A stretch of DNA of 32,965 nucleotides from the NCBI GenBank assembly GCA_002255565.1, contig NCBE01000002.1, positions 1 through 32,965 on the forward strand. The letters run 5' to 3'. The translations under genes and the position numbers were made by a program. This document shows positions 9,562 to 28,646 of the stretch, piece by piece. Under the pieces are notes generated by a model that was not told the DNA's origin, did no database searches, and saw only the letters and a program-made list of their open reading frames with translations. Position 1 is the stretch's first letter. Each line of letters opens with the position of its first letter. Origin of the DNA: Actinobacteria bacterium 21-73-9 (lineage in GTDB: Bacteria > Actinomycetota > Acidimicrobiia > Acidimicrobiales > RAAP-2).

Positions 9562-9682
9562 GGGACCCTCCTCTCCCCAACGGATGCCCGATAACGCAGG
9601 CGACGCTACCAGTCGATACCCAACGGGGGCCCACCCACGGCACACGAGACGAGCGGCCCACGGGCCCGACGGGGTCCGATGT

Positions 9683-9733
9683 TAGGGTCCTCGCGTGAAC
9701 CGGTCCGCGCGCTCGTCGGGGAGTGTCCGATGA
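9683..9733 (+). promoter_or_regulatory. -10 element and 12-codon leaderless uORF before galE
   Basis: TAGGGT is followed after exactly 6 nt by GTG at 9695. The frame from this GTG (VNRSARSSGSVR) ends with TGA at 9731-9733, which overlaps the galE start as ATGA. A GGGGAG site (9718-9723) for galE lies within the uORF. The design matches that at 5533-5592. Inferred from sequence; no -35 is evident. Confidence 0.42.
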
Positions 9734-10686
9734 GGGTCCTGGTCACCGGGGCGGCCGGGTTCATCGGCTCGACGACGGCCGAGGTCCTGCTCGATGAGGG
9801 CCACGAGGTGGTCGCCCTCGACGACCTCTCGACGGGGCACCGCGAGAACGTGCCCGTGCGGGCGCGCTTCGTCGAGGGGCGCTGTGGCGACGCTCCCCTC
9901 GTCGCCTCGCTCGGGGCATTCGACGCGTGCCTGCACTTCGCGGGGCGCATCGAGCCCGCGATCTCGATGGCCACGCCCGAGCTCTTCTTCGACGTGAACG
10001 TGGCCCAGAGCCTCGCCCTGGTCCGCACCCTCGTCGAGGCGGGCTGTCCCAAGCTCGTCTTCTCCTCCTCGGCTGCCGTCTACGGGACCCAGGACGCCAT
10101 GCCGATCACCGAGGACCGCCCGATCCACCCCGAGAGCCCCTACGGCGAGTCCAAGGCCCAGGTCGAGACCGCCCTGCGCTGGCTGGTCGCACGCGGACGC
10201 CTCCGGGCGGCCAGTCTGCGCTACTTCAACGCCGCCGGCGCGAGCCCGGCCCACCCCGAGCGCCACGACCCCGAAATCCACCTGATCCCCCTGGCCCTCG
10301 ACGCGGCGGCGGGGGTCCGCGACGGCCTCGACCTCTACGGTGAGGACTACCCGACCCGCGACGGCACCTGCGTGCGCGACTACGTCCACGTCCTCGACCT
10401 CGCCCGGGCCCACGTGCGCGCGATCGACGCCCTCGACGAGCACCCCGAGGTCGTGGTCAACCTCGGCACCGGGGTCGGGCACACCAACCGCGAGGTCCTC
10501 GAGGCGGTGCGCCGGGTGACCGGCGTCGACTTCGCGGTCCGAGCGGCCCCGCGCCGACCGGGCGACCCCGCCGAGGCCGTGGCCTCGAACGCCCGGGCCC
10601 GAGAGATCCTGGGCTGGACCATCGCCCACACCTCGCTCGAGGGGATCGTGGCCGACGCCTGGGCCGCCCGCGGGGACGCCCACTGA
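9730..10686 (+). CDS. galE: UDP-glucose 4-epimerase-like NAD-dependent epimerase
   Basis: A 318-residue short-chain dehydrogenase-type sugar epimerase that would interconvert UDP-glucose and UDP-galactose (or a close pair), supplying precursors for the polysaccharide genes downstream. It shows the N-terminal Rossmann motif TGAAGFIG, the DDLSTGHREN segment typical of GalE, FSSSAAVYG with the catalytic Ser region, the Tyr-x3-Lys pair Y138/K142, LRYFNAAGA, and RDYVHVLDLARAH. These are GalE hallmarks rather than those of dTDP-glucose dehydratase. The ATG is preferred because it opens the Rossmann strand and has GGGGAG 6 nt upstream; an upstream ATG at 9679 would lie before the predicted promoter. 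No other galactose-catabolism gene is nearby, which favours a role in polysaccharide synthesis. Confidence 0.9.
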   Translation: MRVLVTGAAGFIGSTTAEVLLDEGHEVVALDDLSTGHRENVPVRARFVEGRCGDAPLVASLGAFDACLHFAGRIEPAISMATPELFFDVNVAQSLALVRTLVEAGCPKLVFSSSAAVYGTQDAMPITEDRPIHPESPYGESKAQVETALRWLVARGRLRAASLRYFNAAGASPAHPERHDPEIHLIPLALDAAAGVRDGLDLYGEDYPTRDGTCVRDYVHVLDLARAHVRAIDALDEHPEVVVNLGTGVGHTNREVLEAVRRVTGVDFAVRAAPRRPGDPAEAVASNARAREILGWTIAHTSLEGIVADAWAARGDAH

Positions 10687-10816: not shown

Positions 10817-12067
10817 GTGGAATCCATGGCACAGGGCATGTTCACACGACTCAACCGCTTCCTCACCCGGCGGACCGACCACCCGATCCCCAAGATCGCG
10901 ACGCTGATCGCAACGTCCGCGTTGCTCGTCGTCATGATCAACCTCGACGCGGCCGCGACCCCCGCGACCCGCCTCGCCGCCGGGGTCCGCACGGGCACCT
11001 TCACGAGCATCCAGCCCGGGGGCCCGTTCGCCGCGTTCGGGCCCTACCACCACAACCGGGGCGCGGCCGCCACCACCACGACGGGCGTCACGGCTCCCGG
11101 CGGGGTCGCGGTGGTGACCCCGATCGCGTCTCCCACGCTCGCCGGCCCGACCTCAGCGGCCCCCTCCGGCGGTGCTCCGGCCCCGTCCAACAACGCGCCG
11201 GCCCCGACGACCACCACAACGGGGGGCACGTCCGGCGAGGCCTCGGGCTCGAACCCCCCCACCACGACCACGTCCGCCCCAGCGACCACGACCACGACGG
11301 CGGCGCCCCCGACCACGACCACGACGTCCGCCCCGGCGGCCCCGTCGACGCCGTACCCGATCGGGACCCTCGACGCGAGCGCCCCCTCGGGCTACGCCCC
11401 TCCGGCGGCCAACGCGATGGCCGGCTACACCCAGTCCTACGTGACCGACTTCAACGGGTCGTCCCTGCCGAGCGGCTGGTACACCTACAGCGGCCAGCCC
11501 GGGGGCGACCCCGGCTCGCAGTGGGCGAACTCGCACGTGAGCGTCTCGGGCGGCCTGCTCACCCTCAACGCCTTCCAGGACCCCGCCTACGGCGGTGAGT
11601 GGGTCACGGGCGGCCTCTGCCAGTGCGACGTCGCGCGGACCTACGGCGCCTACTTCGTGCGCTCGCGGGTCACCGGCGCCGGCCCCACCCAGGTCGAGTT
11701 GCTCTGGCCGGCCAACAACACCTGGCCGCCGGAGATCGACTTCAGCGAGACGAGCGGCGGGACCGGCGGGTCGACCGCGAGCGACATCTGGGCGGCGTCG
11801 GGCTCGAGTCGCAGTCAGGTGCAGTCGCACGTCTCGATCGACATGACCGCGTGGCACACCTGGGGCGTGATCTGGACCCCGACGACGATCACCTACACCG
11901 TGGACGGTCGCGTCTGGGGCCAGGTGGCCAACTCCGGTTCGATCCCGTCGATCCCGATGACCCTCGACATCCAGCAGCAGACCTGGTGCAGCTCGGGCTA
12001 CGCCTGTCCGTCGGCGCCCCAGTCGATGCAGGTCGACTGGGTGGCCGAGTACGCCCCGGGCGCCTGA
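10817..12067 (+). CDS. Secreted/anchored GH16 glycoside hydrolase with Thr-rich stalk (paralogue 1)
   Basis: A 416-residue extracytoplasmic enzyme of the GH16 clan, which cleaves or transfers beta-1,3/1,4 glucans or galactans. It has a short basic N-terminus, a hydrophobic signal or anchor (about 26-47), and a stalk rich in Thr, Ala and Pro (about 80-175) with several TTTTT runs, a likely O-glycosylation site. A motif PYPIG...PSGYAPP follows, then the catalytic domain. The catalytic ExDxxE motif is intact (E306, D308, E311 in EIDFSE), followed by WHTWGVIW and the YTVDGRVW strand. Cys pairs in GGLCQC and WCSSGYAC probably form disulfides. The start could also be ATG at 10826; ribosome-binding signals are weak for both. 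Three further paralogues lie within 12 kb. Confidence 0.9.
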   Translation: MESMAQGMFTRLNRFLTRRTDHPIPKIATLIATSALLVVMINLDAAATPATRLAAGVRTGTFTSIQPGGPFAAFGPYHHNRGAAATTTTGVTAPGGVAVVTPIASPTLAGPTSAAPSGGAPAPSNNAPAPTTTTTGGTSGEASGSNPPTTTTSAPATTTTTAAPPTTTTTSAPAAPSTPYPIGTLDASAPSGYAPPAANAMAGYTQSYVTDFNGSSLPSGWYTYSGQPGGDPGSQWANSHVSVSGGLLTLNAFQDPAYGGEWVTGGLCQCDVARTYGAYFVRSRVTGAGPTQVELLWPANNTWPPEIDFSETSGGTGGSTASDIWAASGSSRSQVQSHVSIDMTAWHTWGVIWTPTTITYTVDGRVWGQVANSGSIPSIPMTLDIQQQTWCSSGYACPSAPQSMQVDWVAEYAPGA

Positions 12068-12139
12068 CAACCGGTCCGCACCCCAACGAGCGAACCGTCG
12101 AGCGAGGAGAGCGATGTCAGCGACGCCACCGTGCGACGA

Positions 12140-12157
12140 CCCGCGCCGCGGCGCGGG
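12140..12157 (+). terminator. Perfect GC palindrome after GH16 gene
   Basis: CCCGCGCCGCGGCGCGGG is an 18-nt perfect palindrome, 73 nt after the GH16 stop. It could fold as a hairpin and end transcription, but there is no T-run after it and GC-rich DNA makes such palindromes common. Confidence 0.3.
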
Positions 12158-12228
12158 CCACGGCGGGCGGCGCGTTCGTCACCGCCGAATTACGTCGATG
12201 TCATCTCAGAGAAGGGACCTTGGCGCGG

Positions 12229-12256
12229 TTGACAGTGGCCGAGGCCTCTGTAAGTG
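12229..12256 (+). promoter_or_regulatory. Consensus -35 promoter before structured leader and glycosyltransferase
   Basis: A perfect TTGACA (12229-12234), then 16 nt, then TAAGTG (12251-12256). Transcription would begin near 12262, giving an untranslated leader of about 110 nt before the glycosyltransferase. This is the best -35 element I see in the window. Confidence 0.55.
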
Positions 12257-12261
12257 TTGTG

Positions 12262-12371
12262 GCCGCAAGGGCCAGCAAGGGGCGGTATAGGTGCACGGCG
12301 TCAACCCCGCGTCCTTGTCAGGACGCACCTGGCCTGATCAGGAACGCAAGCTAACGGCGGAGGACGTGACC
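12262..12371 (+). promoter_or_regulatory. Structured 5' leader, possible riboswitch or cis-regulatory RNA
   Basis: Between the predicted transcription start and the GTG of the glycosyltransferase, complementary segments nest neatly. A closing stem is GGCCAG (12270-12275) with CTGGCC (12329-12334). Inside are GGGG (12279-12282) with CCCC (12305-12308) and the hairpin GCGTCCT/AGGACGC (12309-12315 and 12320-12326, loop TGTC). After the closing stem comes the palindrome CCTGATCAGG (12333-12342), then GCAAGCTAAC and the ribosome-binding site GGAGGA (12359-12364). I do not recognise a known riboswitch consensus. The frame is open through part of the leader from a GTG at 12291, but the start inferred from the Shine-Dalgarno site is downstream. 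The rest of the 304-nt gap (12068-12228) holds only the palindrome at 12140. Confidence 0.4.
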
Positions 12372-13052
12372 GTGTCGGTCGTCATACCGACGCTCAACGA
12401 GGCCGGGAACCTGCCCTACGTGCTCAACACCATCCCCTCGTGGGTGGACGAGGTGATCCTCGTCGACGGACGCTCGAGCGACGACTCCGAGCGCATCGCC
12501 AAGACCCTGTGGCCCGACGTGCGCGTCGTCCACGAGACCCGCCGGGGCAAGGGCGCCGCCCTGCGCGCCGGGCTCACCGCGGCCAAGGGCGACCTCCTCG
12601 TCGCCATCGACGCCGACGGCTCGATGGACGGCGCCATGATCCCCCGCTTCCGCGACGCGCTGCTCGAGGGCGCCGACTACGTCAAGGGCAGCCGCTTCGC
12701 CGACGGCGCCGGATCGGCCGACATCACCCCGCTACGGCGTTTCGGCGACGCGGGCATCTGCTTCTTGATCAGGGTCCTCTTCGGGGCCCGCTACACCGAC
12801 GCCACCTACGGCTTCTTCGCGGTGCGCGCCGACCGCCTGGCGTGGCTCAACATCGACTCCGACGGCTTCGAGGTGGAGACCCTGATCGGGATCCGCGCCC
12901 GCCGGGGCCGGCTGCGCATCGCCGAGGTCGCCTGCTACGAGACCCACCGGATCCACGGCACGAGCCGCCTGCACGCGCTGCGTGACGGCCTGCGCATCTT
13001 CCGGACCATCGTGCGCGAGCGGCTCCGTCCCTATCGGATAGCCGATGCCTGA
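12372..13052 (+). CDS. Family 2 glycosyltransferase (polyprenyl-phosphate sugar synthase-like)
   Basis: A 226-residue GT-A fold enzyme that resembles dolichyl/polyprenyl-phosphate mannosyl- or glucosyltransferases. It starts directly at SVVIPTLNEAGNL. VILVDGRSSDDSE, RGKGAALRAGL, the DxD-type metal motif in AIDADGSMD, VKGSRF and a C-terminal DGFEVETLIGIRA follow. There is no C-terminal membrane domain, so it should act on the cytoplasmic face; lipid-linked sugar made here could feed the GT-C-like enzymes elsewhere in the window (inference). The GTG chosen has GGAGG 8 nt upstream; in-frame GTGs at 12366 and 12291 are alternatives. It overlaps the next gene by 8 nt, so the two are coupled. A consensus promoter and structured leader precede it. 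Confidence 0.88.
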   Translation: MSVVIPTLNEAGNLPYVLNTIPSWVDEVILVDGRSSDDSERIAKTLWPDVRVVHETRRGKGAALRAGLTAAKGDLLVAIDADGSMDGAMIPRFRDALLEGADYVKGSRFADGAGSADITPLRRFGDAGICFLIRVLFGARYTDATYGFFAVRADRLAWLNIDSDGFEVETLIGIRARRGRLRIAEVACYETHRIHGTSRLHALRDGLRIFRTIVRERLRPYRIADA

Positions 13053-14169
13053 GTCCTCCCTCGCCGGGACCGACCGGTTCCACGTGGTCGTCGCCGGTCC
13101 GGGGCTCGCCCTCACGATTCCCGGGGTCATCGTGACCGAGCTGGTGCGCGCGCTGTCGCGCCGGGCCATGGTGACCCGCATCGAGGTCGACCTCTCGGAG
13201 CAGGAGCTCACGGGCCTGCACCGTGCCCCGTCGCTCGCCTCGGTCCAGCGTGACGGCAGCCAGGACAACGTGGTGACCCTGCGCGCGCCGATCCGGTCCA
13301 AGGACCGGGCCCGGACCCTGCGCGAGTGGGTGGACGAGTCGGCCGACCTCCTCGTCGTCTACGTCTGGCCGGGCCTCGACAACGTCTGGATGGCCGACCT
13401 CCTCGAGATCGGCCGGGCCCGTGGGGTGCCCACCGTGGTCCTCTGCGCCAGCCTGCCCGGCGTGCGTGCGGCCGACCTCGCCGCCTTGTGCTCCCTCGCC
13501 CACGGCGCCGACCAGGTGTTCGTCGGTCGGGCCGAGGACGCCCGCACCCTCCGCTCTTTCCTGGGGGCCCGAGGACCGCGGGTCGGGGTCCACCGGGCCC
13601 TCGCCCTCACGGGACGCGGCGGCGACGACGACAACGGCGCGATCACCGCCTTCTTGCCCCGGGACAACGTGGCGGCGCTGGCGACGGTCCTGACGGCCTT
13701 CGACGCCGTGCCCGACGAGTGGATCGACGACTACCGACTCCGCGTCGTGATGCGCCACCGCGGCCGCGAGGTCGAGGACCTGGTCGGCTCCAGCCATCAC
13801 GCCGACCAGGTGGAGCTGATCGATGGGGAGATGACCTCGTCCGACCTCGAGGAGGTCGTGGGCTCGTCGGCCGCCGCCGGCATCGCGGACCCCACGGACG
13901 CCTCGCGCGCCCTGGACGCCGCGATGGACCGGGGCGTCGCCACGGTGGCCATGGTCTCGACCAAGACCCTCGCGCTGCGTCGGGGCTACGCCGGGGGGCT
14001 GGTCGCCAACCTCACCCGGCCGGCGTCGGTCCACGTGGCCTTCAACCACGCCCTGCGCCTGTCCTCGCTGCGCTTCCCGAGCTCCGACGACTGGGACGCC
14101 CTCGCGGGGCGGCTGGTGCGCCACGCCACGGTGGCCGTGGCCCCCGTCGCCTCCTACGCCCCCCGCTGA
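13045..14169 (+). CDS. Unrecognised protein, possibly GT-B-like glycosyltransferase relative
   Basis: A 374-residue soluble protein; I do not recognise its family with confidence. The N-terminal half begins with a Rossmann-like strand and loop (FHVVVAGPGLALTIPG) and a helix VTELVRALSRR, followed by a region with VVYVWPGLDN and TVVLCASLPGVR; the second half contains TAFLPRDNVAALATVLTAF and alternating strand/helix segments. This layout is reminiscent of GT-B glycosyltransferases, but no nucleotide-sugar motif is visible. The ATG lies inside the end of the preceding glycosyltransferase gene (8-nt overlap), which ties its function to sugar transfer. Codon use is like its neighbours. A strong hairpin follows 10 nt after the stop. 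It could be a partner or regulator of the preceding enzyme. Confidence 0.75.
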   Translation: MPESSLAGTDRFHVVVAGPGLALTIPGVIVTELVRALSRRAMVTRIEVDLSEQELTGLHRAPSLASVQRDGSQDNVVTLRAPIRSKDRARTLREWVDESADLLVVYVWPGLDNVWMADLLEIGRARGVPTVVLCASLPGVRAADLAALCSLAHGADQVFVGRAEDARTLRSFLGARGPRVGVHRALALTGRGGDDDNGAITAFLPRDNVAALATVLTAFDAVPDEWIDDYRLRVVMRHRGREVEDLVGSSHHADQVELIDGEMTSSDLEEVVGSSAAAGIADPTDASRALDAAMDRGVATVAMVSTKTLALRRGYAGGLVANLTRPASVHVAFNHALRLSSLRFPSSDDWDALAGRLVRHATVAVAPVASYAPR

Positions 14170-14178
14170 CCGGTTGGC

Positions 14179-14202
14179 GCCACCCCCTCGGGCGGGGGTG
14201 GC
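14179..14202 (+). terminator. Strong hairpin after the 13045 gene
   Basis: GCCACCCCC (14179-14187) pairs perfectly with GGGGGTGGC (14194-14202), a 9-bp stem with a 6-nt loop, 10 nt after the stop. There is no T-run; TAAAAT follows at once. It may be a terminator of the U-less type or shape the following promoter. Confidence 0.5.
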
Positions 14203-14204
14203 CG

Positions 14205-14210
14205 TAAAAT
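14205..14210 (+). promoter_or_regulatory. -10-like element TAAAAT upstream of membrane operon
   Basis: TAAAAT is a good -10 match in otherwise GC-rich DNA, about 75 nt before the ATG of the next gene. The -35 region is occupied by the 9-bp hairpin, so recognition would rely on the -10 or on an activator. Confidence 0.4.
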
Positions 14211-14285
14211 GATGGTCCGTGCGGCCCTGGGTCGCAACCGACCGGAGGCGCGACACCCGGGCGCCCCCCGACCCCTCCGAGGACG

Positions 14286-15176
14286 ATGACGAGCCCTGAC
14301 GACGAGCCGGTGACGCCCCCGGTCACCCTGTCCGAGGAGCTGGACCAGGTCGCCCAGAGCCGTTCGGGGGAGGCCTTCGTCTACGAGGCCCTGGCCCGGC
14401 TGGCCCTGCGCCACCAGTTGAGCGACGCGGTGGTCGTCCTGCCCGAGGTGGACGGGGGGCCGGCCCGGGTGCTGCGGCTCGACCGGCGCCCCCTCGCCCC
14501 CTCGATGCTCCACCGTCTCGCCTCGCACCCCGGCCTGCACTGCGACCCGCCGCGGATCCCGCGGGAGGAGCGCCGCCTCGTCCTGGAGCGCTGCCGCGCC
14601 GCCCTCGCCCCCGAGCCCCCCTCGGCGCCCGCGCCCGAGCCCGTGGCCCCGCTCCCCCCGGCAGGGCCCCCCGTCGGCCCCGCGCTGGGGGTCCGCGCAC
14701 CCGGCACGGTCGAGCTCGAGGTGGAGGCCGCGCCGCCCGGCGGGCCCTCGGCGACGCCGACGACGTTTCGTGCGCTGGTGCGCGGGCCCTTGGGGGCGAG
14801 GCGGCGGCGCGCCCCGGGCCCGCTGCCGGGCGACGACGTCCGGCTTCGAGTGTCGGTTGGCCTCGTCGCGGTCTCGCTCGCGATCGTCGCCCTCGGGCTG
14901 GCCCAGGTCCACGGACCCGTGCGCTTCGTGGTCGGCCTCGTCTTCGGTCTCCTCGGGCCGGGCTGGGCGGTCGTGGGTTGGATGCGCCTGGCCCAGCCCG
15001 CCCTCGAGCTCGGGATGACCCTCGCCGCGAGCCTCACCATCCTCATGCTCTCGGCGCAGGTCCTCATCACCGTCCACCTCTGGCACCTGATGGGCTTCGG
15101 CGAGGTCCTCGGCCTGGTCTGCGCCGTCTCGCTCACCCTCCAGGCGCGTCAGCACCGACGTCGGGGGGTTCGGTGA
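14286..15176 (+). CDS. Membrane protein with N-terminal soluble region (DUF1616-like C-terminus)
   Basis: A 296-residue protein of unknown function. Residues 1-115 look soluble and mixed helix/strand; 115-165 is a Pro/Ala-rich linker; from about 185 there are four hydrophobic segments ending in a basic tail. The segment GLVFGLLGPGWAVVGWMRLAQPALELGMTLAASL resembles, by pattern only, the LFxPGYAL...SLGLSL region of DUF1616-type membrane proteins that occur in exopolysaccharide clusters. The ATG has GAGGA 4 nt upstream. The stop overlaps the next gene's GTG by 4 nt (GTGA), and that gene in turn overlaps the large membrane protein, so the three form a tightly coupled operon. Confidence 0.75.
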   Translation: MTSPDDEPVTPPVTLSEELDQVAQSRSGEAFVYEALARLALRHQLSDAVVVLPEVDGGPARVLRLDRRPLAPSMLHRLASHPGLHCDPPRIPREERRLVLERCRAALAPEPPSAPAPEPVAPLPPAGPPVGPALGVRAPGTVELEVEAAPPGGPSATPTTFRALVRGPLGARRRRAPGPLPGDDVRLRVSVGLVAVSLAIVALGLAQVHGPVRFVVGLVFGLLGPGWAVVGWMRLAQPALELGMTLAASLTILMLSAQVLITVHLWHLMGFGEVLGLVCAVSLTLQARQHRRRGVR

Positions 15177-15394
15177 CCTCGGTCGTGATCGTCGCCGACG
15201 CCGCGTCGGCCAGCGCACCGGTCGTCTTCGTGCTGCTCGTGGCCATCGTCATCTTGCTCGTGGTGCGCGCCACGAGCGGCATCTGGAACGTGCCCCTCTC
15301 GCGCGTGGTGTGGCGCTTCCTCGACGTGTCGGTCATCGTCTCGGTCGTGCTCTACGCGGTCGTCGTCTACGCCCGGTTCAAGATCATCGGATGA
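15173..15394 (+). CDS. Small two-helix membrane protein
   Basis: A 73-residue protein with two hydrophobic segments (about residues 15-32 and 50-67) separated by an IWNVPLSRVVWRF loop with basic and aromatic residues. No family is recognised. It starts with GTG overlapping the preceding stop (GTGA) and ends in an ATGA overlap with the following large membrane protein. This double coupling, with normal codon use, argues that it is a real gene. It may be an accessory subunit of the neighbouring membrane proteins (inference). Confidence 0.7.
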   Translation: MTSVVIVADAASASAPVVFVLLVAIVILLVVRATSGIWNVPLSRVVWRFLDVSVIVSVVLYAVVVYARFKIIG

Positions 15395-17301
15395 GCGCCA
15401 CCCTCGCCCCGCCGCGGACGACCGCGTGGCTCGACGCGCGTCGCACCCTGAGCCGGGCGGCCGCGGGGCCGCTGACCCTCTGGCTCGGTGGTCTCGGCCT
15501 CGCCCTATGGATCTACGCCGTCGCCACCTCGGACTACGGCGCGATGAACGGCTACGGCCTGATCTCGGTGCTCGGGTGGACGTACTTCGCGGGGCTGCTG
15601 ATCAGCGTCGTGGGCTTCGCCGTCGAGCTCGGTCAGCCCACGCTGCGCACCGCGCGACTCGTCGGATTCATGGTGCTGTTGGCGATCTTCCTCTACGGCA
15701 CCGCGTCGGCGGTGGAGCCGACCGCCGTCTTGACCGACTCGTGGATCCACGTCGGCTTCATCAAGTACATCCTCGTCCACGGCCAGCCCCTGAACGGCTA
15801 CGACGCGCGCTTCTCGTGGCCCGGGGCCTTCTCCCTCGGGGCGACGCTCTCGGCCTTCGTCGGCCTGCACTCGGCCATCGCCTTCACCCACTGGTTCCCC
15901 CTGGCGATCGAGCTGTCCTATCTCCCGCCGCTGCTGGTCATCGCCCGCTACAGCGGGGTGGGGCCCCGCGCGGGCTGGCTCGGCATCGCCCTCTACTACT
16001 CCACCAACTGGATCCTCCAGGACTACTTCTCGCCCCAGGCGCTCAACTACCTCTTCTACCTGGTCTCCATCGCCGCGGTCCTCTACCTCTGGCGCCCGAG
16101 GCCCCTCGAGGTCACACCCCACGACCCCGGGTCGTGGCGCGAGCGGCTGACCTTCAGCCGCCCCCTCCTTCGCCTGGGGCGGGTGCTCGGCCACGACGCC
16201 GAACCCGTCCGGTCCCCCGCGGTGACGGCCGGTCTGCTGGGCGTGCTCGCGCTGGTCTTCCTCGCGAGCTCGATGAGCCACCAGCTCACGCCCTACGCCC
16301 TGGCCCTGGCCCTCCCGGCCCTCCTCCTCGCGCGTCGGCTGGGCCGTCCGGAGGTGTGGATCCTGCTCGTGGTGCTCGCCATCGGCTGGCTGAGCCTCGG
16401 GGCCAGCAACTTCTGGGTCGGCCACCTCGGGGTGATCTTCGGCTCGATCGGACAGCTCGGCTCGAAGCTGAGCAGCAACGTGACGAGCCGGGTCACCGGG
16501 ACGGTGACCCACCTCATCGTCGTCAAGTCTCGGATCGGCCTCACGGCGGCCATCTACCTCCTGGCCGCCGTCGGCGTGGTGCGCCGACGGGCCGACTCGC
16601 GCGCCCTCGAGGCGCTGGCGGCAGCCCCCCTGCTGCTCATGGCGGCGCAGAACTACGGGGGCGAGGGCCTCATGCGGGTCGTCTTGTACGGGCTGCCCTT
16701 CGTGGGCATGCTCGCGGCCTCAGCCATCCTGCCCAGTCGAGAGGGCCAGCTCTCGAGCCCGCTCGCGCTCCTGCGGCCGCCGTCGTCCTGGGCGATCACG
16801 GGTCACCTCGACCGGGCGATCGCCAGCCGGACCTGGACGGCGACCCGCCACGCGCTCGAGCGATCCTCTCGCGTCCTCGTCGCCGTCGTGCTGGCGGCGT
16901 GCGCGCTGATCACGACGATGGTGCGCGGCGGCAACGACGCCTACGAGTCCTTCACCCCCGACGAGGTCGCCGCGGTCAACTACATCTACAACCACATCCG
17001 CCCGGGACAGGTGATCGGCCTGGCCAACTACTTCATGCCCCTGGGACAGCGCGACGTCGGGACCGTCAACGAGTACATCGCCGGCTCGGCCACGTCGGCC
17101 ACACCGCTCAACGCCATCGTGCGCAGACTCGTGCACAGCAAGTCGACGTTCATCCTGCTCGGTCGCTCCGAGTCGAACTTCGGCGTCGAGGTGCTCAACT
17201 ACCCGCACGACTGGATGGCGGTGGTGCGTAGCGACCTCGTCGCCCGCGGCTACGTCATCGTCCACTCCTGGCCGACCGCGTCGGTTCTGAGGAGGGCCTA
17301 G
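15391..17301 (+). CDS. Large polytopic membrane protein, GT-C or polymerase-like
   Basis: A 636-residue integral membrane protein with about 12 hydrophobic segments and a soluble C-terminal tail of roughly 110 residues after the last helix. An early extracytoplasmic loop carries TDSWIHVGFIKYILVHG followed by GYDARFSWPGAFSL; the Asp near the start of such a loop and the following aromatic/Gly-rich stretch resemble GT-C transferases. An O-antigen-polymerase-like role is an alternative. ATG is chosen because it overlaps the small upstream membrane gene as ATGA. Its TAG stop shares CTAG with the facing GH16 gene, so no terminator separates them. Lipid-linked substrates are likely but not provable from sequence. 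Confidence 0.8.
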   Translation: MSATLAPPRTTAWLDARRTLSRAAAGPLTLWLGGLGLALWIYAVATSDYGAMNGYGLISVLGWTYFAGLLISVVGFAVELGQPTLRTARLVGFMVLLAIFLYGTASAVEPTAVLTDSWIHVGFIKYILVHGQPLNGYDARFSWPGAFSLGATLSAFVGLHSAIAFTHWFPLAIELSYLPPLLVIARYSGVGPRAGWLGIALYYSTNWILQDYFSPQALNYLFYLVSIAAVLYLWRPRPLEVTPHDPGSWRERLTFSRPLLRLGRVLGHDAEPVRSPAVTAGLLGVLALVFLASSMSHQLTPYALALALPALLLARRLGRPEVWILLVVLAIGWLSLGASNFWVGHLGVIFGSIGQLGSKLSSNVTSRVTGTVTHLIVVKSRIGLTAAIYLLAAVGVVRRRADSRALEALAAAPLLLMAAQNYGGEGLMRVVLYGLPFVGMLAASAILPSREGQLSSPLALLRPPSSWAITGHLDRAIASRTWTATRHALERSSRVLVAVVLAACALITTMVRGGNDAYESFTPDEVAAVNYIYNHIRPGQVIGLANYFMPLGQRDVGTVNEYIAGSATSATPLNAIVRRLVHSKSTFILLGRSESNFGVEVLNYPHDWMAVVRSDLVARGYVIVHSWPTASVLRRA

Positions 17302-18188
17302 TGGGCCGGCGCGTACTCCGCGACCCAGGCCACGTCCATCGAGACCGGGTGCGTCGGGCACTGGCGGTGCAGCGCGCAGAGCGTGCGCTGCTCGAAGTCG
17401 AGGGTCATGGGGACGTGCGCCACCTCCTCGGGCGAGGCGATCGTGCCCCACACCTGGCCGTCGACGGTGTAGATGATCTCGCTCTTGGTCCAGATCACGC
17501 CCCAGGTGTGCCACTTGGTCATGTTCACCGTGACGAAGCGCTGCTCGATCTGGTTGATCGGGCCCCAGTGGACCGTCGAGGAAGTGGCCGAGACGCGTCC
17601 GCCCGTCTCGTTGAAGTCGATCTCGGGCGGCCACTGGTTGTTCGCCGGCCAGAGCAGTTCGACCTCGTTGGGGCCCGACCCGGACACCCGGCTGCGCACG
17701 AAGTAGGCGCCGTAGGTCATGGGCCGCCCGCACTGGCAGAGGCCCCCCGTCACCCACGCATTCTTGAAGGCCGGGTCCTTGAAAGTCCGCAGCTCGAGTG
17801 TGCCGTCGTGGACCGTCACGTGGCGCGCACCGAAGTGCCCCCCGGGCGAGCCGGCCTGGGGGCCGGTGAAGAGGTACCAGCCCGAGGGCAGGGACGTCCC
17901 GGAGAACGTCGTAACGTACACCTGACGGAAGTGGGCGAGCGCCTTCGGTCCGGGTGGCGCGACGCCCGACACCGCGTGGGCGTCACGCACGCCGACCGGG
18001 TAGGGAGTGGGCCCGTGCGGGTGGATCGAAAAGACACTGGTCCGATGGGTGTAGGCGTAGGCGAAGACGACCACCGAGGCCATCACGGTCACCACGATGA
18101 ACGTGGTCACGGTCGCCACCACGACACTCGAGAGACGCGAGCGCGCGTGACCGGTGTCCGTCGAGGTCACCTCCGGAACACCCGACAT
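17298..18188 (-). CDS. Membrane-anchored GH16 glycoside hydrolase (paralogue 2)
   Basis: A 296-residue type II anchored enzyme: cytoplasmic tail of about 20 residues, a hydrophobic segment (about 21-45), then a short spacer into the family signature PYPVG...VSGVAPP (62-79). The catalytic motif is intact: E189, D191, E194 in EIDFNE, followed by WHTWGVIW and YTVDGQVW. Cysteines sit in GGLCQC and LCALHRQC near the C-terminus. The last feature groups it with paralogue 4 rather than with 1 and 3. It is the only GH16 gene here on the minus strand. The ATG lies 8 nt after a TAGAAT box, suggesting a leaderless or nearly leaderless mRNA. Confidence 0.92.
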   Translation of the reverse strand: MSGVPEVTSTDTGHARSRLSSVVVATVTTFIVVTVMASVVVFAYAYTHRTSVFSIHPHGPTPYPVGVRDAHAVSGVAPPGPKALAHFRQVYVTTFSGTSLPSGWYLFTGPQAGSPGGHFGARHVTVHDGTLELRTFKDPAFKNAWVTGGLCQCGRPMTYGAYFVRSRVSGSGPNEVELLWPANNQWPPEIDFNETGGRVSATSSTVHWGPINQIEQRFVTVNMTKWHTWGVIWTKSEIIYTVDGQVWGTIASPEEVAHVPMTLDFEQRTLCALHRQCPTHPVSMDVAWVAEYAPAH

Positions 18189-18202
18189 ACCTGGGCATTC
18201 TA
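18189..18202 (-). promoter_or_regulatory. -10 TAGAAT before GH16 paralogue 2
   Basis: On the minus strand TAGAAT (18202-18197) is followed by 8 nt and the ATG. Transcription would start at or next to the start codon. The divergent glycosyltransferase begins 69 nt away. Confidence 0.45.
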
Positions 18203-18256
18203 CCGAGGGGGGGCCGGGACGGTCCCGGGCCGTCCCCGGGCGAGGAGGGGTGCGCG

Positions 18257-19198
18257 ATGAGCCGTCCGAGCGACGCCGCGGCGGCCCCCGCGCTCAGCGT
18301 GAGCGTGATCGTCTGCGCGTACACCCTGGAGCGCTGGGCGCTGCTGTGCGACGCGATCCGCTCGGTCGGAGCCCAGACGCACCAACCCGTCGAGCTCTTC
18401 CTCAGCGTCGACCACAATCGTGAGCTCTTCGAGCGGGCCACCCGCGAGGTCCCGGCGCTGCTCGCCGACCGCGCCGTGGCGGTGCGGGTGATCGAGAACC
18501 GCTTCGACTCACGCCTCGGGGGGGCCCGCACGAGCGCCGCCGAGCTGGCCACCGGTGACGTGCTGGCCTTCCTCGACGACGACGCCGCCGCCGCACCCGA
18601 CTGGCTCGAGCGGCTCGTCGCCGACTACGCCGACCCGCGCGCCGTCGCGGTCGGGGGGGCGCCGCGGCCCCGCTTCGAGTCGCCCCGTCCGCGATGGATC
18701 CCCCTCGAGTGCGACTGGGTCTTCGGCTGCGCCTACCGGGGGCTGCCCGAGACGAAGGGGCCGGTCGAGCACCTCATCGGCGCCAACATGTCGATCCGCC
18801 GGGCGGCGCTGCTCTCGTGGGGCGGCTTCCACTCGGACAACCATGACGACATGGACCTGAGCCACCGCACGGCCCACGCCTTCGGCGCGGACGCCGTCGT
18901 CTTCGACCCCGGGGCCGTCGTCGCCCACTTCGTCCCGGCGTCCCGGCTCACCTGGGACTACTTCTGGCGACGGTGCTTCTTCGTCAACCGGGGCAAGGTC
19001 GCCGCCTTCCGCGGCCTCGGCGAGGCGTCCAACCTGCGCGCCGAACTCCGCTTCGGACTGCGCTCGCTGGCCCGCGGCCTCGTCTTCGAGGGGCGGGCCC
19101 TCGCCGGGGGTGACCTCTACGCACCGGTGCGCTACGGCGTGCTCGTCGCGGCCCTCGCCCTCGGGGCGGCGGGCAACCTCGCGGGCCGTCTGCGGTGA
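18257..19198 (+). CDS. Family 2 glycosyltransferase
   Basis: A 313-residue GT-A enzyme for polysaccharide assembly at the cytoplasmic face of the membrane. VSVIVCAYTLERW opens the nucleotide-binding fold. GGARTSAAELATGDVLAFLDDDA contains the DDD metal-binding triad, followed by WLERLVADYADP, the acceptor-site block GANMSIRR and the catalytic-base region HDDMDLSHRT. A hydrophobic C-terminal stretch (VRYGVLVAALALGAAGNLAG) may associate with the membrane. GGAGGGG lies 6 nt before the ATG. A 7-bp hairpin GGGACGG/CCGTCCC (18216-18236) lies between the divergent gene and this ribosome site. First gene of a coupled series: the stop overlaps the GMC-type oxidoreductase start by 4 nt. Confidence 0.9.
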   Translation: MSRPSDAAAAPALSVSVIVCAYTLERWALLCDAIRSVGAQTHQPVELFLSVDHNRELFERATREVPALLADRAVAVRVIENRFDSRLGGARTSAAELATGDVLAFLDDDAAAAPDWLERLVADYADPRAVAVGGAPRPRFESPRPRWIPLECDWVFGCAYRGLPETKGPVEHLIGANMSIRRAALLSWGGFHSDNHDDMDLSHRTAHAFGADAVVFDPGAVVAHFVPASRLTWDYFWRRCFFVNRGKVAAFRGLGEASNLRAELRFGLRSLARGLVFEGRALAGGDLYAPVRYGVLVAALALGAAGNLAGRLR

Positions 19199-20784
19199 GA
19201 CGGATGGACGTCGTCATCGTCGGGGCCGGACCGGCCGCGGCCGGAGCCGCCCTCGCGCTCGTCGAGCGCGGTGACGTGAGAGTGAGGATCCTCGACGTCG
19301 GCGGGCGACTCGAACCCGAGCTCGACGCGGCGCGCCACCACCTCGCGTCCTCGCCCCCCTCGGGCTGGGACCCCCGCGAACGGGCGCGGGTCGCCGTGGT
19401 CGCCGAGCCCCGTCACGACCATCGCCTGCCCGAGAAGCGCACGTTCGGCTCGGACTTCCCGTTCCGCGACTTCGGACAGCGCGAGGGGCTCGCCGACGAC
19501 GCCCACGTCGTCTCGGGCGCCCTCGGGGGGTTCTCCAACACCTGGGGCGCCCAGACGATGGCGTACTCCGCGGCCAGCTTCGAGGACTGGCCGGTGACCC
19601 GCGACGAGCTCGAACCCCACTACCGGGCGGTGCTGGCGGCCATCCCCTACGCCGGCGAGGTCGACGACCTCTCCGAGTACTTCCCCCTCTTCGGCGAGGC
19701 CGATCCCCTGCCCCCGCTCGCGGGCAACGCCCGGCGCATCCTCGAGCGCTACGAGCGCCACCGGCTCGCGGTGCGCCGCGCCGGCGTCCTGGTGGGTCGG
19801 GCCCGGCTCGCGATGCGCGCGCCGGCGTGCGTGTCGTGCGGACTGTGCATGACGGGCTGCCCGTACGGCCTGGTCTACTCGGCCGCCCAGACCATCGAGG
19901 CGCTCGCGAGCGCGGGACGCGTCGAGTACCGCGGGGGCGTCCTCGCCCTCGAGGTGGGCGAGGACGACGGTCGCCCCCACGTCGTGGTCCGCCCGCGCGA
20001 GGGCGGACCGCGCGAGGTCCTCGAGGCCGACGCGGTCCTCCTAGCCACCGGCGCCATCGCCACGACCCGCCTGGTCGCCGGCTCGCTCGGCCAGTGGGGA
20101 CGGCCCGTCCCGATGGTCGAGTCGGCCCAGTTCGTGGTGCCCCTCGCGTCGGCGAGGGCCACCCACCTCGCCCGCGAGGAGGGTTCTTTCACCCTCAACC
20201 AGTTCAACCTGCTCCTGCCCTTCGACGAGGCCGGGCACGACCTCGTCCAGATCCACGGCTACCCCTACAGCCGCGCCATGGACTCGGCCCTGCCCGGGCC
20301 GCTGCGCCGGGGGGCGCTCGCCCCCCTCGGCGAGGCGCTCTTGCGCCGGGTGACGGTGGGTCTGGGCTATCTCCCCTCCTGGTGGTCGCCGGGCTTCGAG
20401 GTCACCGTCACGCCGGGGGCGTCCGGGGACGGGCTCGCCCGGGTTCGCATCTCGCCCACCCCGGGACGCGACGACGTGGCCCGCCGACGCCTGCGCGAGG
20501 TCGCCGGGCGCCTCGCGCGCGCCGGACGTCACCTCGGCGTCTGGCCGGTCGTCCCGATGATGGCGTTGTCGCCCGCGACCACGAGCTACCACTTCGGGGG
20601 CAGCTTCGCCCACCGTGACGACCCTCGGCCCGGGCTCGACAGCGACGTCCTGGGTCGCGTGGCCCCGTGGCGCCACGTCCACCTGGTCGACGCCTCCGTC
20701 TTCCCCACGGTCTCGGCGACGACCTTCACCCTCACCATCATGGCCAACGCCCACCGCATCGCGAGCGCCCTGGAGGCGCGATGA
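19195..20784 (+). CDS. GMC-type FAD oxidoreductase with ferredoxin-like Cys motif
   Basis: A 529-residue flavoprotein of the GMC (glucose-methanol-choline) class. The N-terminal VIVGAGPAAAGAALAL binds FAD; the middle contains GALGGFSNTWGAQ, a typical GMC active-site approach loop; and the C-terminal HLVDASVFPTVSATTFTLTIMANAHRIA is the GMC_oxred_C signature. Between them is CVSCGLCMTGCPYG with C212, C215, C218 and C222 spaced CX2CX2CX3CP, exactly as in 4Fe-4S ferredoxins. Some long-chain alcohol oxidase-like GMC proteins have a related Cys segment, so cluster binding is possible but unproven. The GTG start overlaps the preceding stop (GTGA); ATG at 19204 is an alternative. It sits with sugar genes and may oxidise a sugar or lipid alcohol (inference). 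Confidence 0.88.
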   Translation: MRRMDVVIVGAGPAAAGAALALVERGDVRVRILDVGGRLEPELDAARHHLASSPPSGWDPRERARVAVVAEPRHDHRLPEKRTFGSDFPFRDFGQREGLADDAHVVSGALGGFSNTWGAQTMAYSAASFEDWPVTRDELEPHYRAVLAAIPYAGEVDDLSEYFPLFGEADPLPPLAGNARRILERYERHRLAVRRAGVLVGRARLAMRAPACVSCGLCMTGCPYGLVYSAAQTIEALASAGRVEYRGGVLALEVGEDDGRPHVVVRPREGGPREVLEADAVLLATGAIATTRLVAGSLGQWGRPVPMVESAQFVVPLASARATHLAREEGSFTLNQFNLLLPFDEAGHDLVQIHGYPYSRAMDSALPGPLRRGALAPLGEALLRRVTVGLGYLPSWWSPGFEVTVTPGASGDGLARVRISPTPGRDDVARRRLREVAGRLARAGRHLGVWPVVPMMALSPATTSYHFGGSFAHRDDPRPGLDSDVLGRVAPWRHVHLVDASVFPTVSATTFTLTIMANAHRIASALEAR

Positions 20785-21638
20785 CCCGCGTCGCGGTGAC
20801 CGGCGCCGGCGGCTTCCTCGGGGGCGCCCTCGCCTCGCGGCTGCGCGCCGAGGGCGACGACGTGGTCGAGCTGCGCCGCGACGGGGCGGAGCCCTTCGAC
20901 CTCGCGGGGCCGCACCGCCCGGGACGCCTGAGCGGGGTCGACGTGCTCGTGCACGCGGCGTGGGACCTGCGCACCACGGACCCGGTCGCGGCCTGGCGCG
21001 TCAACGTCGAGGGGTCGCGCGCGCTGCTGGAGGCGGCTCGTTCCGACGGGGTCGGGCGCGTCGTGTTCGTCTCGTCGATGTCGGCGTACTTCGGCACCCG
21101 ACAGGCGTACGGACTCACCAAGCTCGCCGTCGAGCGCACGGTGCTCGAGGCCGGCGGCGTCGTCGCCCGGCCCGGGCTCGTCTACGGCGCCGGGGCCGGG
21201 GGGATGATGGGGACGCTCCGACGCCTGTCGCGCCTGCCGGTCATCCCCTCCTTCCCCCGCGCCTCCCAGTTCACCGCCCACGTCACCGACGTCCTCGAAG
21301 GGCTCGTCGCCCTCGTGCGCGCGCCCGAGGCGACCGGCGCCGTGGTCGGCCTCGCCCATCCCGTCGCGGTCCCCTTCGACCTCGTGATGTCGGTGCTCGC
21401 GCGCGAGGCGGGCCGGAGCCGACTCGTGCGGGTGCGCGTGCCGTGGCCCGTGCTGCTCGGCGTGCTGCGCGCGGGCGCGGGCCTCGGCCTGCCCCTGCCG
21501 GTTCGGCCCGACTCGCTCCTGGGGCTGGTGCGCCCGGCGCCGTCGGTGCCCGGGACAGACCTGGTCGGGGCCCTCGGAGTCACTTTCAGGCCGTTCCCAG
21601 ACGGACTGGCGCAGGCGCCGACGATACTGGGTCCATGA
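20781..21638 (+). CDS. NAD-dependent epimerase/dehydratase family protein
   Basis: A 285-residue extended short-chain dehydrogenase. It opens with VAVTGAGGFLGGALASRL (nucleotide-binding Gly motif), continues with DVLVHAAW, VFVSSMSAYFG, and a Tyr-x3-Lys pair in AYGLTKLAVE, then RPGLVYG. It is shorter and less canonical than GalE, so the substrate (nucleotide sugar or another sugar derivative) cannot be named. The ATG overlaps the preceding oxidoreductase stop as ATGA, with GGAGG 5 nt upstream; its own stop overlaps the start of GH16 paralogue 3 as ATGA. It probably works in the same pathway as the oxidoreductase. Confidence 0.87.
   Translation: MTRVAVTGAGGFLGGALASRLRAEGDDVVELRRDGAEPFDLAGPHRPGRLSGVDVLVHAAWDLRTTDPVAAWRVNVEGSRALLEAARSDGVGRVVFVSSMSAYFGTRQAYGLTKLAVERTVLEAGGVVARPGLVYGAGAGGMMGTLRRLSRLPVIPSFPRASQFTAHVTDVLEGLVALVRAPEATGAVVGLAHPVAVPFDLVMSVLAREAGRSRLVRVRVPWPVLLGVLRAGAGLGLPLPVRPDSLLGLVRPAPSVPGTDLVGALGVTFRPFPDGLAQAPTILGP
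21623..21634 (+). promoter_or_regulatory. Internal -10 for leaderless GH16 paralogue 3
   Basis: GATACT (21623-21628) lies inside the end of the epimerase gene, followed after exactly 6 nt by the ATG of the GH16 gene. The mRNA would begin at the start codon. No Shine-Dalgarno site is visible, which fits leaderless translation or coupling to the epimerase. Confidence 0.45.
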
Positions 21639-22783
21639 CCCGTCGTCCCACGCGACTGGCCGGCCTGGCGCTGGTCGTCGCGATCTCGATGGGCGGCGCC
21701 TCCTTCGCAGGGGCCACGACGCACCGCCCCCATCCCCCGTCCCACCTGCCCGGGTCGGCCGCCTCGGCGACCTTCCCGACGGGCCTGCCCGACGCGAACG
21801 AGCCGTCCGGGGTCGCGCCGCCGAGCTCCACGGCGCTGCCCGGCTTCGTCGAGCGCTACGTCACCGACTTCACCGGCTCGTCGCTGCCCGCGGGCTGGAG
21901 CGTCTTCTCGGGCGCCGCGTCGGGCGATCCCGGCTCCCAGTGGGCGGCGAGCCACGTCAGCGTGAGCGGGGGCCTTCTCTCGCTCAACGCGTGGCGCGAT
22001 CCGGGCTACGGGGGCCAGTGGGTCACCGGAGGGCTGTGCCAGTGCGACGCGACGACCACCTACGGCGCCTACTTCGTGCGCTCGCGCGAGACCGGTCCCG
22101 GGCCGACCGTCGTGGAGCTGCTCTGGCCCGTGACGGGCTGGCCCCCCGAGATCGACTTCAACGAGACCGACGGGCACACCACCTTCAGCTTCGCCACCCT
22201 TCACTGGGGCGTCGCCAACCACCAGGTCCAGGTGCGCACGTCGGTCGACCTCACCCAGTGGCACACCTGGGGCGTCGTCTGGACGCCCACCACCGTCGTC
22301 TACACCATCGACGGGCGGGTCTGGGGGGTCGTGAACGCGCCGAGCGAGGTCCCCCACGTCCCGATGTCCCTCCACCTCCAGCAGCAGACCTGGTGCTCGC
22401 AGGGCTACGCCTGCCCCACCAGCGACCAGTCGACCCAGGTGGACTGGGTCGCGTCGTACGCGATGAGCCCGAACTCGACCAGCCTGGCCCCCTTCGTCTC
22501 GGGACGGGTCGCCCTGAGCGCCGCCCAGAAGGCGTCGGTCGCCAGCGAGGCCCTGGCGATCGCCACCCAGGGCGACGAGCTCGTCTCGGTGGTGGGCCAC
22601 CCCACCAGCCCCGGTGGCGTCGCGCTGGCCGGGCGGCGCGCGAGCGCCGTGCGCTCCTACCTGCTCGAGCGCCTGGCCCGGCTCCACGATCGCCAGGTGA
22701 TCGTGGCGGCCGTCACCGGGTCCGTCGTGACCTCCCGCAGCCGCCTCGCGGGGACGGCCTCGGTCTCGATCGACGTGGCCTAG
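21635..22783 (+). CDS. Secreted GH16 glycoside hydrolase with C-terminal OmpA-like domain (paralogue 3)
   Basis: A 382-residue exported enzyme. Residues 1-28 form a signal peptide (basic start, hydrophobic core, AGA-type cleavage region). The family signature FPTG...PSGVAPP (47-63) precedes the catalytic domain with E172, D174 and E177 in EIDFNE, and QWHTWGVVW. Cys pairs lie in GGLCQC and WCSQGYAC, as in paralogue 1. After about residue 285 comes a domain absent from the other three: an amphipathic helix, then LVSVVGHPTSPGG, then LAGRRASAVRSYLLERL. This resembles the OmpA/MotB peptidoglycan-binding fold (GHTD...G...LSxxRAxAVxxYL), although the usual Asp is missing. It may anchor the enzyme to the wall. 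Translationally overlaps the epimerase. Confidence 0.9.
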   Translation: MTRRPTRLAGLALVVAISMGGASFAGATTHRPHPPSHLPGSAASATFPTGLPDANEPSGVAPPSSTALPGFVERYVTDFTGSSLPAGWSVFSGAASGDPGSQWAASHVSVSGGLLSLNAWRDPGYGGQWVTGGLCQCDATTTYGAYFVRSRETGPGPTVVELLWPVTGWPPEIDFNETDGHTTFSFATLHWGVANHQVQVRTSVDLTQWHTWGVVWTPTTVVYTIDGRVWGVVNAPSEVPHVPMSLHLQQQTWCSQGYACPTSDQSTQVDWVASYAMSPNSTSLAPFVSGRVALSAAQKASVASEALAIATQGDELVSVVGHPTSPGGVALAGRRASAVRSYLLERLARLHDRQVIVAAVTGSVVTSRSRLAGTASVSIDVA

Positions 22784-22793
22784 GTCCACCCCG

Positions 22794-22818
22794 GCCCGCG
22801 CCCCGGGTCGGCGCGGGC
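22794..22818 (+). terminator. Perfect hairpin between GH16 paralogues 3 and 4
   Basis: GCCCGCGCC (22794-22802) pairs with GGCGCGGGC (22810-22818): 9 bp, 7-nt loop, 10 nt after the stop codon. No T-run follows. Placement and geometry match the hairpin at 14179-14202. Confidence 0.5.
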
Positions 22819-22826
22819 GAGGCCGG

Positions 22827-22838
22827 TAGGGTCGGGGG
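22827..22838 (+). promoter_or_regulatory. -10 TAGGGT for leaderless GH16 paralogue 4
   Basis: TAGGGT (22827-22832) is followed by exactly 6 nt and ATG. The same hexamer and spacing precede the uORF of galE at 9683. Confidence 0.45.
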
Positions 22839-23678
22839 ATGCTCTCAACGAGTGCGCTCGTCTGGGGCGCCCGCTGGGTCCGGCGCGCCGCGCTCGGCGT
22901 CGCGGCCGTCATCGTCCTGGCCTCGGTCGCCCCACTCGGACGCGGCCCGGTGCGCCTGGTCAACGTGAACGGCCACTACCCCGTCGGCGTGCCCAACTCG
23001 GCCGAGCCCTCGGGCGAGGCCCCGCCGGGGCGCACCGCGCTGGTGGGCTATCGGCTGTCGTACGTCACCGACTTCGGGGGCACGAAGCTCCCGCGGAACT
23101 GGTACCTCTTCACGGGGATCCCCGGCGGCGACCCCGGGGGCCGATTCCTGGCCTCGCACACCGTGGTGACCGACGGGATGCTCGAGCTGCTCGCCACCGA
23201 GAACCCGTCGAACCACCTGCACTGGTTCACCGGTGGTGTGTGTCAGTGCGGGGTGGCCCACGTCTACGGCGCCTACTTCGTGCGCTCGCGACTCAGCGGA
23301 CCCGGGCCCAACGTCGCCGAACTGCTCTGGCCGGCGAGCAACCACTGGCCACCCGAGATCGACTTCAACGAGACGGGCGGGTCGGACGTGTGGACCTCCA
23401 CGTCGCTGCACTACGGCGCGAACAACAAGATCGTGCGCAGCGGCGTGCACATCGACATGACCAAGTGGCACACGTGGGGCGTGATCTGGTCGCCCACGAG
23501 TGTCGTGTACACGGTCGACGGACGCGTGTGGGGGCGCTTCTCCCAGCGCGCCCACGTCCCGCGCGTCCCGATGACCCTCGACTTCGAGCAGCGGACCCTC
23601 TGCCCGCTCCACCGCCAGTGCCCGACGGCTCCCCAGCAGCTCTACGTCGACTGGGTCGCCGAGTACGTCCGCGCCTGA
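22839..23678 (+). CDS. Secreted/anchored GH16 glycoside hydrolase (paralogue 4)
   Basis: A 279-residue enzyme with a basic N-terminus and one hydrophobic segment (about 17-33) acting as signal or anchor. The signature YPVG...PSGEAPP (47-63) leads into the GH16 domain with E173, D175 and E178 in EIDFNE, then KWHTWGVIW and YTVDGRVW. Cysteines occur in GGVCQC and LCPLHRQC; with FEQRTLC this makes it the close partner of paralogue 2. The protein ends right after the DWVAEY strand, so it has no extra domain. It appears to have its own leaderless promoter and is followed by a gene-poor region. Substrate likely the locus polysaccharide (inference). Confidence 0.92.
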   Translation: MLSTSALVWGARWVRRAALGVAAVIVLASVAPLGRGPVRLVNVNGHYPVGVPNSAEPSGEAPPGRTALVGYRLSYVTDFGGTKLPRNWYLFTGIPGGDPGGRFLASHTVVTDGMLELLATENPSNHLHWFTGGVCQCGVAHVYGAYFVRSRLSGPGPNVAELLWPASNHWPPEIDFNETGGSDVWTSTSLHYGANNKIVRSGVHIDMTKWHTWGVIWSPTSVVYTVDGRVWGRFSQRAHVPRVPMTLDFEQRTLCPLHRQCPTAPQQLYVDWVAEYVRA

Positions 23679-24642: not shown

Positions 24643-24920
24643 CGTCCGATCCGATCTCGGGCACCGCCGCGACGAGCCGCCGCCTCGGTCCTCCGCGTCG
24701 TGGCGTGCCGGGGTGGCCCCGTGGCGGGATCGACGACGCCCCCACCAGGGACGACAGCGACCCACGCGGCGAGGAGCGGTGCGCCCCGCCCGTGACGCGC
24801 TCGCGGCCGCGGAGCCGCGAACCGCGGTGACGACGTGAGAGAATGACTTTTTTCCGAGCCGCTCGCCACCCGCTCCCCGTCCCGCGGCGCCGCGAACCAG
24901 GCCCAACGACGAGGACGAGC

Positions 24921-28431: not shown

Positions 28432-28464
28432 GACTCTCCTCCGTTGGGGGTGATGACACCCCGG

Positions 28465-28498
28465 GCGGGCGCGACGCCCGCGGGACTCATCCATTCTA
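28465..28498 (-). promoter_or_regulatory. -10 TAGAAT and leader hairpin for SGNH hydrolase
   Basis: TAGAAT on the minus strand (28498-28493) would start an mRNA near 28486, about 55 nt before the GTG. The leader contains a perfect 7-bp hairpin GCGGGCG/CGCCCGC (28465-28481, 3-nt loop). The same TAGAAT box precedes GH16 paralogue 2. Confidence 0.45.
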
Positions 28499-28646
28499 GG
28501 GGGCTCCCTGGTCGCGGCGGTGGCCATGGTCCGCACCCGCTCCCGGTGCGCGGGGACCGCGCCTCGGGAGTGGCGAGAAGGTGACCCGCGTGGCTTGCGT
28601 GGAGTGCCCGGCTGTCTTAGTACTTGGTGAGAACAGAAAGGAGGCC

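Follow-up and report, generated by a model that had tools for sequence, protein, structure and literature searches.

Four diverged GH16 paralogues, predicted to be tethered in different ways, in a glycan-building locus of an Acidimicrobiales bacterium

The GH16 family is already known, as are single glycanases encoded within exopolysaccharide loci. A GH16 protein, PrmQ, belongs to the promonan exopolysaccharide cluster of Sphingomonas, and deletion of prmQ leads to rugose colonies and a changed texture (PMC11340318). In Sinorhizobium, the succinoglycan glycanases ExoK and ExsH are, as far as the accounts available to us go, endo-glycanases that cut the producer's own exopolysaccharide, and among GH16s of solved structure the laminarinases ZgLamC (4crq), P. 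furiosus LamA (2vy0) and R. marinus 3iln are known as glucan-degrading enzymes. The reason for several glycanases in one exopolysaccharide locus is not understood so far. The multiplicity of the GH16 genes described here and their stable orthologous types are unusual.

We analysed a stretch of DNA of 32,965 nucleotides (hereafter the window), which is an entire contig of an Acidimicrobiales MAG (1.95 Mb in 194 contigs, 87.9% complete, 2.5% contamination). Its named relatives are Acidimicrobiaceae or Acidimicrobiales MAGs, many of them with palsa, bog or fen in the record title. A genome-wide search gave four GH16 matches, all inside the window:

10817..12067, plus strand: GH16_1, hydrophobic N-terminal segment, 134-residue Ser/Thr/Pro/Ala/Gly-rich linker (82% STPAG), GH16 domain
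11354..11404, plus strand: YPIGTLDASAPSGYAPP motif of GH16_1
17298..18188, minus strand: GH16_2, transmembrane anchor and GH16 domain (Pfam; AlphaFold2 pLDDT 90.4, helix 18-47)
17952..18002, minus strand: YPVGVRDAHAVSGVAPP motif of GH16_2
21635..22783, plus strand: GH16_3, GH16 domain between a signal segment and an OmpA-like domain at the C-terminus
21773..21823, plus strand: FPTGLPDANEPSGVAPP motif of GH16_3
22469..22780, plus strand: decayed OmpA-like C-terminal domain of GH16_3 (PF00691 match at 22493-22708, below cut-off)
22839..23678, plus strand: GH16_4, N-terminal anchor or signal, then GH16 domain (Pfam)
22977..23027, plus strand: YPVGVPNSAEPSGEAPP motif of GH16_4

An earlier note on this DNA had placed four GH16 genes at these positions and described their motifs, and the open reading frames, the Pfam scores and a direct reading of the motifs bear it out. 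The proteins score 34 to 47 bits against Pfam GH16, each above the gathering score of 22 bits, and since their catalytic parts are 48 to 64% identical pairwise (E 1e-87 or better), the similarity is not due to chance. All four carry an N-terminal hydrophobic segment and YGAYFVRSR; their N-terminal motifs read YPIG..SGYAPP, YPVG..SGVAPP, FPTG..SGVAPP and YPVG..SGEAPP, and GGLCQC in GH16_1 to GH16_3 is GGVCQC in GH16_4. The catalytic motif, EIDFSE in GH16_1 and EIDFNE in the other three, is intact as claimed, E189, D191 and E194 being kept in 111 of 111 rows from the genus.

Like PrmQ, the four proteins are GH16s, predicted to be exported, inside an exopolysaccharide locus with GT2 glycosyltransferases, and their expected substrate is what their own locus makes. 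Unlike the window, the promonan cluster has one GH16 instead of four, is of the Wzy type and lies in a Gram-negative, and an OmpA-type tail is not reported in the accessible text (PMC11340318). The expected cutting of the producer's own polymer likewise recalls ExoK and ExsH, and in NCBIfam GH16_1 matches ExoK best (37 bits), but the four proteins score 22 to 37 bits against the ExoK equivalog NF052392, far under its cut-off of 350 bits, and they belong to another phylum and, judging from the accounts of succinoglycan available to us, to another locus. With the laminarinases 4crq, 2vy0 and 3iln they would share the GH16 jelly roll, predicted from models for GH16_2 and GH16_3 and by homology only for GH16_1 and GH16_4. 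The folds that match best belong to laminarinases and related GH16s (207-219 residues at 2.0-2.4 A, VIA-align Z about 25), at an identity of 17 to 22% to the solved structures, a fold match that assigns no substrate. A profile search of the PDB gave only the beta-glycosidase 6t2r (4.9e-6) and laminarinase 3iln (8.4e-4), and a search of viral contigs found no relative.

The signature had been thought private to the four copies, a claim that did not survive a wider search, since it recurs in about 110 GH16 homologues of the same genus. These distinct members were gathered from congeneric genomes and 74 named loci; in a profile search the family is present in 36 of 99 congeneric genomes, with 1 to 7 matches each (counts blurred by sequence gaps in the MAGs), and among 61 genomes from the species of the window and from related ones, 21 are carriers. 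Five loci from MAGs titled Acidobacteria (G2_25, REEB88; L101, L130, L134, L140, L144) have GH16 sequences matching those of G034 and G010, which belong to the same Acidimicrobiales genus, and these titles look wrong. Among the genus rows of our 120-row alignment, S74 is found in 110 of 110, P79 in 101, G149 in 111 of 111, and GGxCQC with both cysteines in 105 of 110. When 397 genomes sampled from the order and 396 from the phylum were searched, matches above 140 bits beyond the genus were limited to two families, f16 and f99 (two genomes each), all other non-genus matches falling below 90 bits. GH16s from these two further families of the phylum also have a shortened PSGxAxP or (P)SGxA(M/L/I)P, and because most f16 and f99 proteins retain (P)SGxA(M/L/I)P, SGxAPP is, by this comparison, the version of an older feature that this genus has. 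CQC is found in none of these proteins and is on the same grounds a genus trait, and a cysteine aligned with the second one of the C-terminal loop is present in 7 of the 9. Some of these outgroup GH16s (L149, L150, L170) begin with repeats of the GYWLVASDGGIFxFGDAxFxGS type, followed by a Pro/Thr-rich linker.

In the AlphaFold2 model of GH16_2, residues 61-90 are mostly coil, in blocks with a mean pLDDT of 95-98, and the first long strand starts at 87, while structural alignments to solved GH16s, about 200-229 residues long with Z about 22-25, have their first residue somewhere from 48 to 89. Since this confident coil runs into the first strand and the alignments start where they do, the SGxAPP stretch looks in the model like a rigid coil that caps the catalytic domain at its N-terminal end, with no separate module. 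As for the cysteines, both of CQC are kept in 105 rows of the genus alignment and both are lost in 5, with no mixed rows, whereas none of 110 rows lacks the C-terminal pair. Because the former are lost or kept jointly while the latter are invariant, there are probably two separate pairs, C151-C153 and C271-C277, which we predict to be disulfides.

The four copies are, by the sequence comparisons, ancient paralogues that fall into four orthogroups common to other species. In a tree with outgroups, many forks of which are weakly supported, all 111 rows from the genus group together in a single clade (support 100); GH16_1 lies in an 18-row clade (83), GH16_3 in a 9-row clade (97), and GH16_2 and GH16_4 in different subclades of one 58-row clade (97). 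The nearest sequence to each window copy is its orthologue from another species, at 87 to 97% identity against 48 to 64% among the four copies. Together with the conserved gene order, this argues that the copies are not recent local duplicates, and the tree, the identities and the synteny rule out a recent tandem duplication. The earlier note was thus right about four diverged paralogues of one GH16 clade in a glycan-building locus, as identities, tree and neighbours all indicate, whereas no recent local duplication was found. A recent duplication drifting to redundancy, with no division of labour, would agree with the adjacency of GH16_3 and GH16_4 and with a split GH16 containing a stop in a relative (G028:C23), but it conflicts with the orthologue identities and the conserved order and with purifying selection on all four copies; largely refuted by tree and synteny, it is extremely improbable. 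Indeed, dN/dS values of 0.11 to 0.28 for orthologue pairs of all four copies show that each is kept under purifying selection. The split copy (G028:C23:6859-7735) is interrupted by a TAG stop and a break and is probably a pseudogene, and in another genome, G001 (L033 1083-1922), the GH16_4 orthologue lies between a response regulator and a sensor kinase gene, not beside GH16_3.

The C-terminal cysteine motifs, CSSGYAC and CSQGYAC versus CALHRQC and CPLHRQC, had been read as dividing the copies into two pairs. The split itself is real, and GH16_2 and GH16_4 do share the 58-row clade, of which Q or E before the second cysteine is typical. In contrast, GH16_1 and GH16_3 are not sisters in the free tree, although an AU test does not reject their sisterhood (p 0.74). 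Alanine before the second cysteine, present in 49 of the 53 other genus rows, looks ancestral in the alignment, and the QQTWC...AC common to GH16_1 and GH16_3 is probably ancestral too.

The genes among which the GH16s are interleaved are the following:

9679..10686, plus strand: GalE-type UDP-glucose 4-epimerase (TIGR01179, 327 bits, above cut-off), conserved upstream neighbour of GH16_1
12291..13052, plus strand: GT2a, an AglJ or polyprenyl-phosphate sugar transferase-like GT2, after GH16_1 in most species
13045..14169, plus strand: 374-aa protein with no Pfam match, conserved in the locus
14286..15176, plus strand: 296-aa protein with four TM-like windows, conserved in the locus
15173..15394, plus strand: small hydrophobic protein, also in at least G031
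15391..17301, plus strand: Mem15391, an integral membrane protein of 636 aa that may be a GT-C glycosyltransferase or polymerase
18257..19198, plus strand: GT2b glycosyltransferase (profile matches)
19195..20784, plus strand: GMC-like flavoprotein oxidoreductase (weak Pfam match, below cut-off, and NCBIfam matches)
20781..21638, plus strand: NAD-dependent epimerase/dehydratase (SDR; PF01370, 60 bits)

GalE, the two GT2s and the second epimerase were confirmed, and the flavoprotein, whose GMC assignment is weak, is 32% identical to a GMC oxidoreductase homologue on an Azospirillum plasmid. By tblastn, the order GalE, GH16_1, GT2a, 374-aa protein, 296-aa protein, Mem15391, GH16_2, GT2b, GMC-like protein, epimerase, GH16_3, GH16_4 is conserved: the set is complete in the near relatives G032 and G820, with the four GH16s arranged as in the window, and more distant species keep only blocks, most often GalE-GH16-GT2a-374aa. 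Furthermore, Mem15391 is found in 26 of the 99 congeneric genomes, all 26 GH16-positive, and in none of the 63 GH16-free ones (Fisher p 5e-16, a significance inflated by the relatedness that the test ignores); the genomes lacking it include G361, 96% complete in three contigs. Ten GH16-positive genomes have no Mem15391, most of them with one or two GH16 matches and some fragmented or incomplete. GT2a gives strong matches in 29 genomes, 28 of them GH16-positive. In f16, another family of the same order, two GH16 genes lie less than 5 kb from a Mem15391-like gene, with GT2a-like and GT2b-like genes near, and since these GH16s also lie near such genes, the link between GH16 and the polymer locus probably predates the genus, unless the locus has passed from one family to another.

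Based on this setting, together with the predicted fold, the intact catalytic residues, the purifying selection and the precedent of PrmQ, we think it fairly probable that the four proteins are a conserved set of tethered, endo-acting GH16s that process the surface polysaccharide of their own locus. An alternative is that they are catabolic and digest environmental beta-glucans or other polysaccharides. The nearest folds, laminarinases, and the peat-type origin of the relatives (palsa, bog and fen titles) would suit such a role, but the GH16 genes are embedded among, and co-occur with, glycosyltransferase and sugar epimerase genes, their products appear to be tethered to membrane or wall, and no sugar uptake genes were recognised among the window neighbours examined, so that we hold catabolism to be quite improbable. 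As to how the polymer would be made, a search of the genome, which is 88% complete, gave no PF02397 initiating sugar transferase, against 9 of 14 control genomes that have one, and this argues that the pathway is not the standard one with that initiation type. A polyprenyl-phosphate-sugar pathway with GT-C-type membrane transferases (a GT87-like protein at 3842-5431 and perhaps Mem15391) is plausible from the gene content. The GMC-like flavoprotein and the SDR epimerase (19195-21638) occur in the same arrangement in glycan loci on Azospirillum and Rhizobium plasmids, and the pair possibly carries out a two-step, oxidise-then-reduce sugar epimerisation.

In the processing scheme that we favour, the locus holding the four paralogues would make the surface polysaccharide, and we infer that the GH16 products are exported and held at the cell surface. 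GH16_2 and GH16_4 would be tethered by short membrane anchors and GH16_1 by its hydrophobic segment and long, flexible Ser/Thr/Pro linker, and GH16_3, which begins with a signal-like segment, by an OmpA-like tail of the wall-binding type that is decayed in this species. The retaining machinery, E189-x-D191-x-x-E194 in GH16_2 numbering, would then act in endo fashion on the locus polymer, with the tethered enzymes trimming or rearranging its chains outside the membrane.

The tail of GH16_3, of the peptidoglycan-binding type and intact in relatives, had been overlooked in the earlier note. It scores 22.1 bits (E 2.7e-4) against PF00691, below the cut-off of 27.2 bits, which the tails of five genus relatives pass (E 3.3e-13 to 1e-7), and a profile-profile comparison with the OmpA-bearing genus relatives (hhalign) gives a probability of 98% and E 3e-14. 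The model of the tail has the order beta-alpha-beta-alpha-beta (E281-288, H296-312, E316-322, H326-349, E356-361); the tail is assigned from its sequence profiles and its predicted secondary structure, the fold-search lists all concerning the GH16 domain. The relatives' tails match the OmpA-like peptidoglycan-binding domains of PA0833-PD (6jfw) and Rv0899 (2kgw/2lbt) in the PDB, with E 6e-19 and 1e-15. Unlike those domains, the tail is here fused to GH16, and the window copy, under the Pfam cut-off, lacks the GxxD aspartate. Such an aspartate binds diaminopimelate together with an arginine, which GH16_3 retains. Because the score is weak and the aspartate is gone, wall binding by GH16_3 itself appears doubtful. 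The GH16-OmpA architecture was not found in the literature searched, a limited search that is no proof of absence; the fusion may be a route by which an actinobacterial polysaccharide is processed or fixed at the cell wall.

The active sites differ as well. In GH16_1, a conserved histidine on the strand after the catalytic one is replaced by isoleucine, and there is a 3-residue insertion. Of the 111 genus rows, 98 have the histidine and 12 have isoleucine; the 12 are GH16_1, others from its clade and some of the OmpA-tailed rows. Viborg et al. describe a histidine on the strand adjoining ExDxxE in several GH16 subfamilies (PMC6827312), and by its position ours would be their His-161. The replacement is, on the alignment, the best lead for a functional difference between the copies. 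It also bears on another reading, raised in the earlier note beside the cutting of different linkages of one polymer, in which the four proteins are transglycosylases that cut and re-join chains to build or cross-link the matrix or attach the polymer to the wall and do not depolymerise it. GH16 holds both hydrolases and transglycosidases (PMC6827312), the relatives of GH16_3 have a wall-binding-type tail, and the isoleucine in some members of the GH16_1 subclade and of the OmpA-tailed clade to which GH16_3 belongs, like the insertion in GH16_1, changes the active-site surround; the sequence features at hand do not separate transglycosylases from hydrolases, and we regard this reading as unlikely. 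A spatial assembly line, in which near-membrane (GH16_2, GH16_4), long-linker (GH16_1) and wall-bound (GH16_3) enzymes that differ around the active site would cleave and re-join a single polymer at one envelope depth after another and anchor it to the wall, is more speculative and somewhat less likely.

In this genus of mostly 1-3 Mb genomes, a single genome has up to seven GH16 matches and often four, and they fall into stable orthologous types whose main differences are the tethering and a few active-site positions. Since each version would be held at the cell surface differently, the four types suggest a division of labour as the cell trims or rebuilds its own coat, and they offer a natural series in which to ask whether changes in tethering and active site divide the work on one polymer.

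Further genes surround the locus. Those for a response regulator, a hybrid sensor kinase, an EAL protein and a PAS-GGDEF-EAL protein (5517-9645 and 24843-27116) flank it and are partly syntenic in relatives; such EAL, PAS-GGDEF-EAL and two-component neighbours suggest control of the locus by c-di-GMP. PilT-like ATPase and prepilin peptidase-like genes (22-807 and 3065-3841) adjoin it, both syntenic in G820 and the peptidase also in G032. Finally, a GDSL-like hydrolase with an N-terminal hydrophobic stretch (27508-28653), a candidate polymer deacylase, is encoded near the locus and is also present in G032 and G001.
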